Of a stretch of 64,000 nt of DNA, positions 53,201-59,696 are shown piece after piece. The notes under the pieces are model-generated. The model had not been told where the DNA came from, ran no database searches, and saw only the letters and a list, made by a program, of their open reading frames with translations. The position numbers and the translations under genes are program-made. Positions within the stretch are counted from its first letter, which is position 1. Each line of letters begins with the position of its first letter. Source of the DNA: Halobellus clavatus (lineage in GTDB: Archaea; Halobacteriota; Halobacteria; Halobacteriales; Haloferacaceae); assembly GCF_900107195.1 (NCBI RefSeq), contig NZ_FNPB01000005.1, positions 124,001 through 188,000 on the forward strand, given 5' to 3'.

Positions 53201-54199
53201 TCACCCGAACAGCGTCCAGGTCACAGCGAGCGTCACCGACGCTACCACAGCCCACGTCAGGAGCACGACGACGACCGGCGCTTTGCCGCCCCGGACGAAC
53301 ACCGACCGGCGGAGTTCGGTCCCCAGGCCGACGAACGCGAGCAGAAACAGCCAGTCGTACGTGGTTTCGAGGAACTGCACCTGTTCGGCCGAGAGGAGGC
53401 CGGCGGTGGCCGCGACGGCCAGCACCAGAAAGCCGAGCACGAACGTCGGAAACTCCGCCCAGAGTGCGGCAGCGCCCGCGTTCGCGTCGGTTCCACGCCG
53501 CGCGTAGTACGCGGCGTAGACGAGGACCACCAGTCCGATCAGCGCGTTGCGGCCGAGCTTCGTGATCGTCGCCCACTGGCCCGCGATTTCGGCGTAGGCG
53601 AATCCGGCCGCGACGACCGGGCCGGTGCTGAACATACTCAACCCGGCCCAGATCCCGAACACCTGCTCGGGGACCGCCAGAGCCGATCCCAGCGCGGGGT
53701 ACAGCGCGAGCGTCACCGCGTCGAACAGCAACACCGTCCCGGCCGCGTACGCGATCGTTTCCTCATCGGCATCGATGCTCCCGGCGACGGCGGCGATCGC
53801 CGAAACGCCACAGATGCCCGTCCCGGCAGCGAGCAGCGATCCCAGTTCCTCGCGGATCTCGAACACACTCCGGGCGGTCGCTTCGAGGACGATCACGGTC
53901 AGGACCACAGTCCCGACCACCAGCGCGAGGACGATCGGACCCCCATCGAGTAACGCCCCCAGCGACACCGACGCGCCCATCAACACGATGCCCGCACTCA
54001 GCCAGAGCCCGTGCGTCTGGATGCCCGGCTCGATTCGTCCGGGGATGCCCACGACGTTGCCGAGAAGGAGGCCGATCACGACCGCGAGGAGGAGGGGATC
54101 CGGCCACGGAAGGACCGCACCGAGCGCCTTGGCCCCGATCGCTCCCAGCACGAGGACGCCGATCCCGAGCGCGGTGTTCACGGCGTTCGTCGCGTTCAT
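53201..54199 (-). CDS. YeiH/UPF0324 family membrane protein (putative sulfate exporter)
   Basis: 332 residues from the ATG at 54199. About ten membrane segments. Family motifs: VVIGLLLGNVVGIPGRIEPGIQTHGLWLSAGIVLMGASVSL, LLAAGTGICGVSAIAAVAGSIDADEETIAYAAGTVLLFDAVTLALYPALG and FLLAFVGLGTELRRS near the end. In bacteria these are linked to sulfate or sulfonate export; in haloarchaea untested. Upstream there is a 748-bp gap. Confidence 0.85.
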   Translation of the reverse strand: MNATNAVNTALGIGVLVLGAIGAKALGAVLPWPDPLLLAVVIGLLLGNVVGIPGRIEPGIQTHGLWLSAGIVLMGASVSLGALLDGGPIVLALVVGTVVLTVIVLEATARSVFEIREELGSLLAAGTGICGVSAIAAVAGSIDADEETIAYAAGTVLLFDAVTLALYPALGSALAVPEQVFGIWAGLSMFSTGPVVAAGFAYAEIAGQWATITKLGRNALIGLVVLVYAAYYARRGTDANAGAAALWAEFPTFVLGFLVLAVAATAGLLSAEQVQFLETTYDWLFLLAFVGLGTELRRSVFVRGGKAPVVVVLLTWAVVASVTLAVTWTLFG

Positions 54200-54947
54200 C
54201 ACCGCGATCGCACCTCGACACTCATCCCGACGGGCCACCGAGACCGACGAAGCGGGGGCGCTGCACGATGGTGCCCGCCGGAGCAGTCACGCGACGCTGC
54301 CACCGGGGGACAGACTGCCGTCGTCGGTGTGTCGGCTGCTCCGATCGGTTTATACACCACGCGGGCGATACCGACTGCTCCACGGAGTGCAGTTCCCGAC
54401 TCGGGTAATTAAATGTGCATACACGACCCGAGCCAAGAGCGCAGATCCCGCGGCAGCAAAAGCCGACGTGTCGCCCAAGACACTACCGAACGAGAAACGA
54501 CCGGGAGGCCCGATGAACGGGTGATTCGCTGCGAAAGAACCTCTCGATCATCGTCTCCCTGCTTGTACATTCCGTAGCCGGGTTTCCCGAGTAATCTTCA
54601 AGCACCCAACAAAAAATGACAACTATCTGTCAAAATCAGCTTGCAAGATACAGAGGATGTGTGCCGCACCCCAGCACTCGACAGTTGTTGAGATAGCCTC
54701 ATACTGTCGGACAGAACTATGTGAAAATTATCGGCACCTCGTGGGTGCCAAAACGATTCACGAACTTCTGTCCGACAGTATCAAGCCCACGATTCACCAG
54801 GCTTCTGCAATCGGTGGCTCGCCAAGCAATGGCGGATGTGAACACAGTAGTCGGCAGGTAGCAGAGGATGGCGACAGCCCACCGAATTGCGACGGTCGCT
54901 ACACCCTCCTCCACGAGACACATATAGCTCTGTTCTCTGTCTACCAT
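54200..54947. other. 748-bp regulatory/intergenic region with a long palindrome
   Basis: No gene is convincing here. The first 230 bp contain the YeiH promoter and CGGTTTATACACC (about 54346-54358). From 54410 onward the DNA is clearly less GC-rich. It contains AATTAAATG, the IR TGACA(54617)/TGTCA(54628), CGACAGT at 54679 and the 81-nt palindrome at 54701-54781. A TATA-like CATATAG (54921-54927) lies 21-27 nt before the amidohydrolase ATG. The frame open from 54657 into the amidohydrolase is not coding-like before 54948. Confidence 0.6.
54701..54781. repeat. 81-nt nested palindrome
   Basis: Outer arms ATACTGTCGGACAGAA (54701-54716) and TTCTGTCCGACAGTAT (54766-54781) are perfect inverted copies of 16 bp. 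Inside, at equal distances, GTGAA (54721-54725) pairs with TTCAC (54757-54761), and GGCACC (54733-54738) pairs with GGTGCC (54744-54749) around a 5-nt loop. Unpaired segments are 4 and 7 nt on both sides, so the element is length-symmetric around 54741. Each outer arm also contains its own palindrome CTGTCSGACAG. Operator pair, structured RNA, or end of a mobile element are all possible. Confidence 0.85.
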
Positions 54948-55973
54948 ATGGAAGAGATCGAGGGAACTGTCCTTGCCGGACAGTCGTTTGAGCCGATCCA
55001 CGGGCGAGTCGTCGTTGAGGACGGATACATAACGGCCGTTGAGGAGGTATCCGAGCGGGATGGCGATCCAGACCGGATCATCCTGCCGGCGTTCGTGAAC
55101 GCGCACACCCACGTCGGTGACTCAGTTGCCAAGGAGGCGGCTGTCGGACTCGGCTTGGAAGAGGCAGTGGCACCGCCAGACAGTCTGAAACACCAACGAA
55201 TCGAAGCGGCCGACAACGAGACGCTCGTCACCTCGATGCATCGCACACTCCGATTTATGCAGCGAACCGGCACCGCGGCGTTCCTCGACTTCCGGGAGTT
55301 CGGCGTCGACGGTGCAAGGGCGTTACGCGAAGCCGCTGCGGGACTCGATATTGCGGCCTTCATATTCGGGAGCGATGACCCCGCTGTGTTGGACGTGGCG
55401 GACGGATTCGGTGCCAGTGGCGCAAACGATGATGAGTTCACCGCCCGGCGGGCCGCCGCCGAGGAACGTGGAGTACCGTTTGCGATCCACGCCGGCGAAC
55501 CGGACGCCACCGATATACACCCGGCACTGGATTTGGAACCGGACCTACTGGTCCATATGGTCCACGCTGAAGCGGAGCACCTCAGACGGGTGGCCGATCA
55601 AGACGTACCCATCGCTGTCTGTCCCCGTGCAAACCGTGTCTTGGGAGTCGGGCGCCCGCCGATAGAGACACTGCTCGAGTACACATCCGTGGCGCTTGGG
55701 AGTGATAATGTGATGCTGAACTCCCCCTCGATGTTCCGTGAGATGGAGTACACCGCAAAGACGTTTGACCTCCCCTCGCGGACGGTGCTTCAGATGGCGA
55801 CGACCGCTGGAGCCGAGGCTGTCAATCTCGACTGCGGTGTCATCGAACCGGGCCGCCGGGCCGCACTATTGGTACTTGACGGCGATTCCGACAACCTCTC
55901 GGGCATCGCGGACCCGGTCGATGCGATCGTTCGACGAGCGTCCGCGTTGGACATACAACGCGTCATCGCCTGA
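54948..55973 (+). CDS. Amidohydrolase-superfamily protein (nucleoside/base deaminase-like)
   Basis: 341 residues from the ATG at 54948. Metal site: FVNAHTHVGDS (HxH) near residue 47, HAGE near 184 and SDN in LGSDNVMLNSPSM near 265 (metal-binding Asp). The C-terminal MATTAGAEAVNLDCGVIEPGRRAALLVLD is the usual end of the chlorohydrolase/deaminase subgroup. It lacks the usual longer N-terminal barrel region, so it is on the short side (family 380-450). Substrate unknown. It precedes the P450 by 138 bp in the same direction and shares its lower GC. Confidence 0.85.
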   Translation: MEEIEGTVLAGQSFEPIHGRVVVEDGYITAVEEVSERDGDPDRIILPAFVNAHTHVGDSVAKEAAVGLGLEEAVAPPDSLKHQRIEAADNETLVTSMHRTLRFMQRTGTAAFLDFREFGVDGARALREAAAGLDIAAFIFGSDDPAVLDVADGFGASGANDDEFTARRAAAEERGVPFAIHAGEPDATDIHPALDLEPDLLVHMVHAEAEHLRRVADQDVPIAVCPRANRVLGVGRPPIETLLEYTSVALGSDNVMLNSPSMFREMEYTAKTFDLPSRTVLQMATTAGAEAVNLDCGVIEPGRRAALLVLDGDSDNLSGIADPVDAIVRRASALDIQRVIA

Positions 55974-58021: not shown

Positions 58022-59404
58022 TTACAGCGCGTAGTCGGACTCGGTGATCTGCACGTACTTGCCGTTCCGGAATGAGAACTTCGTGCGCTTGTACGTCGTG
58101 ACGAGTCTGGCCGCACCGAAGCCCGCCTTGAGGTTGCTCGTGTCGAACAGGCCGTACCCCTCGCTGTTTTCGAGCAGTTTCCGCGCGGTCGAGAACGCCC
58201 AGTCCCAGTCGTCGGGTTCGTAATCGTGGACGATATCGGCCATCGCGACGTTCCGGAGCACCTCGTCACCGATCGCGTCCTTCCAGCGCTCGTTGTACGG
58301 CGACAGATCGCCCGATGCGGCGAGTTCACCTGCAATCGCGCCGGTGCGGACCGCCGTGTGATCGCCGCCCTCGTGGAAGGCCGACGTCGCACCCATCGCG
58401 CCGCCGACCACGGCGATTCCCGCTCCGGTCGGGGAGTCGATCGGCTGCGTCGAGGAAATCGCGTAGGTCTCTGTCCCGTCGGACTTGCCCCGGTCTTCGA
58501 CGAGCGGGAAGTCGGCCTCGATGTCGTACTCGTCGCCGTACTCGTGTTCGAGGAGGCGGCGGATGTACTCGCTCCCCTGGGGTATCCGTTCGTCGCCCGG
58601 TTGGAGCAGGGGGTACGCCTCACGGTTCTCGATCTCTTCGATGTCCAGTCCGATCGGCATCGTGAGCCCGATCCGGGCCACGTTGCCGTCGTTCGGGAAG
58701 ATCCACGGATAGGCTGTGTGCCCCGGCATATGCCCCCACCAGAACTTGATCGCCCCGGCGACCTCCTCGAACACTTCTTCGGGGAGGCGCCGGTGCTCCT
58801 GGTAGGCGATGTGGTTCGTCTTCCGAGTCGAGAGCCGCTCGGTCACGTCGAACGGCAGGTACTCGTCGATGACGCGGTTGGTCACCTGTCGCTGCGGTCC
58901 GTCGGCGAGGATCAGGAACGCCGCGCCGATTTCCTCGCCGCCCGCGAGTTCGAGTCGGTGTCGCGGCCCGTCGCCCGCTCGATCCGTCTCGACGTCGCGG
59001 ACCGACACGCCAGCTCGGTACTCGGCACCGGCCTCCTCGGCGCGGTCGCGGAGGAAGTCGTCGAAGCGCGCCCGGTGCATACAGAACCCGAAGTTGTCGT
59101 AGGAGGACTCGATCCCCGTCGAGCGGAGGGTGAGCGACTCCGAGGGACCGATGAACTCCGCGCGATCCAGTTCGCCGAGGACGACCTCTTCGGGCATCTC
59201 GTCGGGGTGAATGCCCATAATGTCGACCCAGTAATCGAGGATGCCAGCCGCGTCTGTCGAGTCCGGCCCCAGCCGGTCCGGCCGATCCGACCGCGGGACG
59301 CCCTTCTCGAAGGCTACCGCCGACGCGCCGGCCGACGCGGCGGCGTGTGCGGCCGCCGCGCCGGCTGGACCCCCGCCGACGATTGCCACGTCGAATCGCT
59401 CCAT
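58022..59404 (-). CDS. Geranylgeranyl reductase-family flavoprotein
   Basis: 460 residues. FAD motif VAIVGGGPAGAAAAHAAASAGASAVAFEK at the start; the second, GIAVVGGAMGATSAFHEGGDHTAVRTGAIAGELAA (around residues 325-360), holds the GD that binds FAD. AYPWIFPNDGNVARIGLTMPIGLDI is typical of the group that reduces geranylgeranyl chains of archaeal lipids or menaquinone tails. The C-terminal extension (LKAGFGAARLVTTYKRTKF) is unusual. TATA-like AGTATAATACC lies about 26-35 nt upstream on the minus strand. Which of the two reductase roles it has cannot be told. Confidence 0.87.
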   Translation of the reverse strand: MERFDVAIVGGGPAGAAAAHAAASAGASAVAFEKGVPRSDRPDRLGPDSTDAAGILDYWVDIMGIHPDEMPEEVVLGELDRAEFIGPSESLTLRSTGIESSYDNFGFCMHRARFDDFLRDRAEEAGAEYRAGVSVRDVETDRAGDGPRHRLELAGGEEIGAAFLILADGPQRQVTNRVIDEYLPFDVTERLSTRKTNHIAYQEHRRLPEEVFEEVAGAIKFWWGHMPGHTAYPWIFPNDGNVARIGLTMPIGLDIEEIENREAYPLLQPGDERIPQGSEYIRRLLEHEYGDEYDIEADFPLVEDRGKSDGTETYAISSTQPIDSPTGAGIAVVGGAMGATSAFHEGGDHTAVRTGAIAGELAASGDLSPYNERWKDAIGDEVLRNVAMADIVHDYEPDDWDWAFSTARKLLENSEGYGLFDTSNLKAGFGAARLVTTYKRTKFSFRNGKYVQITESDYAL

Positions 59405-59696
59405 ACCGCTACAGCGTCACCGCCCGGGTATTATACTGTCGGAGGCGGTTCTCCATCGGCACCTGCCGGCAGTATCGGCTGTACCCAGGGTCCCGTCGCC
59501 GCCCGGAGTTTATGTACGATGACGGGGCCAGCAGCCGTGTGCACTGACAGCGATCCCGCGTCGGGCAGCGGTTGTTCGGCACACCGGCGCGGGCGAACGT
59601 GCGGGTGCCGACTGTTTGCCTGCGGCACCCCGTCCGCCCCCGGTCACACTCGGCCCAACCCGGCCATTCTTGCGCGACGAGGCCTAACCGTCCGGT

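Follow-up and report, generated by a model that had tools for sequence, protein, structure and literature searches.

MITEs (non-autonomous mini-transposons) and small mobile repeats of haloarchaea (SMRs) have been described from Haloquadratum walsbyi, with HqIRS families among them, and some of the Haloquadratum MITEs have no intact partner in the genome (PMC3119063). Hairpin-shaped MITEs are also known from bacteria, among them Correia, Chunjie, QMITE and others (reviewed in PMC10969869). In eukaryotes, the NuwaII group of PHIS (PIF-Harbinger), relatives of IS5, uses a C-TNA-G target and leaves a 3-bp TNA duplication (PMC4482050).

Here we describe a 79-bp hairpin from Halobellus clavatus which, with a probability that we put at about 0.94, is one copy of a haloarchaeal family of hairpin-shaped MITEs that is moved in trans and joins (C)TNA(G) targets. 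Like the Haloquadratum walsbyi MITEs (PMC3119063), its members are short, non-coding and multicopy, have terminal inverted repeats and are mobile without a transposase of their own. From the SMRs, one of which is 80 bp long and which have no target duplication (PMC3119063), the family is set apart, on the descriptions, by its 3-bp TNA duplication. With the bacterial hairpin MITEs it shares small size, inverted ends, direct repeats and copies near genes (PMC10969869). Those elements nevertheless have other sequences and other hosts. Their target duplications are also other than those of the haloarchaeal family. The C-TNA-G target with a 3-bp TNA duplication, as found here, is that of NuwaII/PHIS (PMC4482050). 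Those elements are eukaryotic, and as our search found no transposase with the ends of this family, we regard the link as one of resemblance, not membership. TNA is also the sequence duplicated by the IS1031 group of IS5.

Structure and fold of the palindrome

The window (the whole 64-kb stretch of DNA that was analysed) has a 0.7-kb gap between two divergent genes, a minus-strand gene at 53201-54238 (PF03601) and an amidohydrolase gene at 54948-55973 (PF01979), and the element is placed in this gap, 167 bp upstream of the amidohydrolase start at 54948. The initial annotation had described a nested, length-symmetric palindrome here, and a direct read of the sequence agrees with it throughout: the 16-bp arms are perfect (ATACTGTCGGACAGAA, 54701-54716, and TTCTGTCCGACAGTAT, 54766-54781), they enclose an inner 5-bp pair (GTGAA/TTCAC, 54721-54725 and 54757-54761) and a central 6-bp hairpin (GGCACC/GGTGCC, 54733-54738 and 54744-54749), and the unpaired stretches of 4, 7 and 5 nt lie symmetrically about the palindrome centre at 54741. 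The lower-GC island that it had noted is likewise present, with a GC content of about 0.69 leftward and of 0.49-0.54 at 54550-54999.

The RNA fold of 54690-54790 has an energy of -45.8 kcal/mol compared with -20.5 ± 3.4 kcal/mol for shuffled sequence (z = -7.45; 0 of 200 shuffles reached it), a real folding gain, and the DNA fold of the 79-nt element strand gave z = -8.5. At 54702-54780 the palindrome is the longest inverted repeat within the window. No Rfam family matched. Because A54701 and T54781, which pair at the outer tips of the 16-bp arms, are target DNA and part of a duplicated target (TCA ... TCA), the element proper is 79 bp long. Its features are as follows, with their basis in brackets.

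54699-54701, no strand: left copy of the 3-bp target duplication TCA (sequence; TNA duplication in 69 of 94 family members)
54702-54780, plus strand: the 79-bp element, very probably a MITE, without coding capacity (genome copies and haloarchaeal relatives)
54702-54716, plus strand: left terminal inverted repeat, TACTGTCGGACAGAA (exact partner at 54766-54780)
54720-54725, plus strand: inner stem, left side; six pairs in the fold, the outermost T-G (fold)
54733-54739, plus strand: central hairpin, left side (fold)
54743-54749, plus strand: central hairpin, right side (fold)
54757-54762, plus strand: inner stem, right side (fold)
54766-54780, minus strand: right terminal inverted repeat (sequence)
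54781-54783, no strand: right copy of the 3-bp target duplication TCA (sequence)

Copies in the host genome and in other haloarchaea

We found many further copies of the element, both in its own genome and in other haloarchaeal genomes. The palindrome has both copies elsewhere and a folding gain, two properties whose lack the initial annotation had said would speak against it. Ten inverted pairs of the arm core TACTGTCGGACAG, of constant spacing, are present in the own genome, along with one decayed copy. The ten full copies are near-identical, with identical arms and few substitutions in the core, and they lie in both orientations in unrelated surroundings.

Presence of the element is patchy, even inside the genus: a scan of the 170 genomes of the host's taxonomic family gave a match in seven, of which six are of the window's genus (the own genome included) and one is of another genus. 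The sister species Halobellus inordinatus YC20 (G086) has 123 TNATACTGTCGG sites, compared with 0 and 1 for the reversed control, and from this count it carries about 60 copies of the element. Plasmid records with a match are those of Halobellus ramosii (90%) and H. limi (75%). Among 392 Halobacteriales genomes, 54 contain the exact 16-bp arm. When 84,980 species were screened for pairs of perfect arms separated by 49-79 nt, all 32 stretches obtained were haloarchaeal and came from Halobellus, Natrialba, Natronorubrum, Natrarchaeobius, Natrinema, Natronococcus and a Halobacteriales MAG. In a search for carriers, the element was unmatched in phages and viral contigs.

Evidence for insertion

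The window copy is flanked by TCA on both sides, a target duplication of the kind that the initial annotation had suggested looking for. Identical 3-bp repeats flank 69 of the 94 distinct copies collected and are TNA every time (TGA in 29, TCA in 27, TAA in 8 and TTA in 5); flanking repeats of 1, 2, 4 or 5 bp are rare. In the 72 copies with TNA on both flanks, the middle base agrees in 69. The base before TNA is most often C and least often A, so the target is roughly C-TNA-G. The own genome has two exceptions: one copy (L002) lacks a TNA repeat, and another (L020) has TGA at one flank but TCA at the opposite one.

An empty site was found for the copy L012, which is inserted at the 3' end of a MATE gene. 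Two related genomes (G090 and G094) share the gene order of this locus; queried with the joined flanks, they are collinear over 499 bp with no length difference, and they keep GCCGACGACTG at the insertion point and then continue without the element. A further copy (L018, G000:C19 ~147377) splits a 343-aa frame, probably a gene for a Thr-rich lipoprotein, which is open once the element and one TNA are removed. The left flank of the window copy has no counterpart in the genus.

Since copies are dispersed and flanked by TNA, since relatives have an empty site and since a reading frame is split, we conclude that the palindrome is a mobile element, which was one of the options in the initial annotation. 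Several traits of a MITE are present: the element is short and has no transposase gene (79 bp in the window and 77-108 bp in the family), it has terminal inverted repeats that are perfect over 15 bp, it has a 3-bp duplication of the target, and it occurs in multiple dispersed copies with empty sites. These traits also bear on a possible origin as a PATE or another product of the IS200/IS605 group, elements that are abundant in haloarchaea and have palindromes near their ends (PMC3119063). Such elements move by single-strand hairpin transposition and have neither terminal inverted repeats nor a target duplication (PMC3119063), whereas both are present here, and we give this origin a very slim chance.

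The same evidence bears on another option in the initial annotation, the binding of two regulator dimers, read here as an operator that would control the amidohydrolase and other genes. An operator would account for the CTGTCSGACAG palindromes in the arms and for the position in a divergent intergenic region. It finds no support in the ten own-genome copies with their unrelated contexts, however, for copies adjoin unrelated genes, many of them at gene 3' ends or inside genes; what is repeated is a whole 79-bp unit with conserved loops, superfluous for a binding site, and the flanking target duplications are needless for one. We consider the operator highly improbable. A TATA-like motif, ACATATA, lies some 27 nt ahead of the start at 54948 and points to a separate promoter for the amidohydrolase gene, so nothing here implies that the MITE acts in its expression. 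An amidohydrolase context shared with the Halobellus limi copy was considered and rejected, as the amidohydrolase downstream of that copy is not homologous to that of the window.

Elsewhere in the window, at 59429-59440, the motif TTATACTGTCGG (which reads CCGACAGTATAA on the opposite strand) precedes the start of a minus-strand gene at 59404 by about 27 nt and looks like a BRE/TATA promoter; there are five TTATACTGTCGG sites outside MITEs in the own genome. The MITE ends together with the TNA target resemble this promoter-like motif, and judged by this likeness MITE copies might supply outward promoters.

Family lengths and paired changes at the ends

The 94 copies fall into length classes of 77-79, 98-99, 102 and 107-108 bp; a 160-bp family entry was discounted as a false join. 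The ends are common to all classes, and the cores differ. The 79- and 108-bp types are related, because they share further bases beside the ends (GAACTAT-TGAA-AT on one side and TCAC--ACTTCTG on the other). The 77-79, 98-99 and 107-108 bp classes are spaced by roughly 20 and 10 bp, near whole helical turns, which may reflect descent only.

Some variant forms were also seen. An adjoining element at L049 (G242:C22) has altered ends, TACCATCGG...CCGATGGTA, with matching changes on both sides. Half elements that consist of a single arm without a partner occur at L073 (G370:C29, ~1500) and L076 (G233:C1, ~1501), and past the lone arm of L073 the sequence runs into a reading frame that by eye is integrase-like.

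We examined covariation in the short class with 13 divergent members. Within the 15-bp outer stem, 92% of cells are paired, and five pairs are altered on both sides (position 13, for example, is G-C, U-A or C-G). Both-sided changes occur in 15 cells compared with 6.9 expected, and the covariation score is above those of all 500 shuffles and of all slid versions, which shows that the two element ends change together. Covariation of this kind is also expected of a transposon, whose two ends have to match, and so is not in itself proof of an RNA function.

Folding as RNA had been another option in the initial annotation, and part of it stands: the fold is real and paired changes preserve its stem, although the identical ends of a transposon would have the same effect. 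If the element were a functional RNA or a transcription-terminator hairpin under selection, and not a selfish element, then the very stable fold, the paired changes in the stem and the many copies directly behind a stop codon (see below) would be accounted for. The lack of a match in Rfam and the patchy presence, in 7 of the 170 genomes, argue against it, and the target duplications and empty sites show insertion; we judge it unlikely. The mobile element may still act as RNA once inserted.

Insertion at stop codons

In three of the ten own-genome copies (L012, L004 and L006) a long coding-like frame has its stop codon at the duplicated TNA, in L004 a conserved frame of 477 codons, and in insertions of this kind the target duplication keeps the stop codon intact. 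The window copy has no recognisable stop codon at its TNA. Across the family, with gene calls that are crude (length and codon-position GC) and with some copies that may share the descent of one insertion, in 20 of 69 clean insertions (about 28%) the TNA terminates a coding-like frame of 100 codons or more, compared with 77 of 3645 nearby stop-like sites; neighbouring TNA sites are stop codons in 2-6%.

One explanation for this excess is selection after insertion rather than targeting. Insertions into genes and promoters would be lost, and those at stop codons would be harmless, in line with copies such as L012 and L004, where the duplicated TGA or TAA leaves the gene product intact. We rate this explanation at even odds. 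Against it, the excess persists when non-coding TNA sites alone are considered: with coding regions masked, 19 of 51 insertions are at stops compared with 35 of 1129 sites, and no simulation reached 19, the conservative locus-by-locus expectation (insertion site included) being 9.2. It persists also in matched C/G context (17 of 38 compared with 17 of 307; P about 0.003 in a conservative test). Loss of insertions from promoters may still contribute to it. A bolder reading is that an undescribed archaeal transposase has a TNA preference that makes stop codons hot spots, and that each insertion rebuilds the stop and puts a strong hairpin behind the gene, thereby spreading ready-made 3' ends among the genomes of haloarchaea. 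We think this doubtful.

Search for an autonomous partner

No autonomous relative with the same ends, and no convincing end pair at the spacing of an IS, was found among the end sites listed (at least 100 each) in G000 and G086. The PF01609 and PF13358 transposase loci that we fetched from MITE-rich genomes, with ends checked by script, have other ends, and the only inverted end-like pair 0.6-4 kb apart in the fetched loci consists of two neighbouring MITEs. In the MITE-rich genomes searched, PF13359 gave no match and PF13586 gave one, below its cut-off. PF07592 gave no match in MITE-rich genomes, which says little because control genomes gave none either. We take one end-pair candidate (G000 C10:3056-5305) to be due to chance: its right end falls within a long reading frame of 451 aa that by eye is P450-like, and its flanks are not a duplication. 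The partner search covered draft assemblies, where full-length IS copies are often missing.

Discussion

We propose, as the most likely mechanism, that the family is mobilised in trans. A transposase encoded elsewhere would grip and cut the element at its ends (TACTGTCGGACAG...) and join it to a (C)TNA(G) target that it cuts with a 3-nt stagger; gap filling would leave TNA on both sides of the element. We infer from the sequences that the enzyme would be a DDE transposase, as the matching ends, the fixed 3-bp stagger and the preferred target fit cut-and-join.

As a MITE the element is of an ordinary kind, and the family is new in the openly readable literature that we searched (ISfinder not included), where a search with the element-end sequence returned nothing related. 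A striking palindrome is hereby explained as a mobile element. With its ends, target, length classes and hosts the family is well bounded, and annotators of haloarchaeal genomes can mask or trace it; the many copies in Halobellus inordinatus should make finding the missing transposase tractable. Finally, the duplication of a stop codon at about a quarter of insertions indicates that a target preference can render a mobile element almost harmless to its host.
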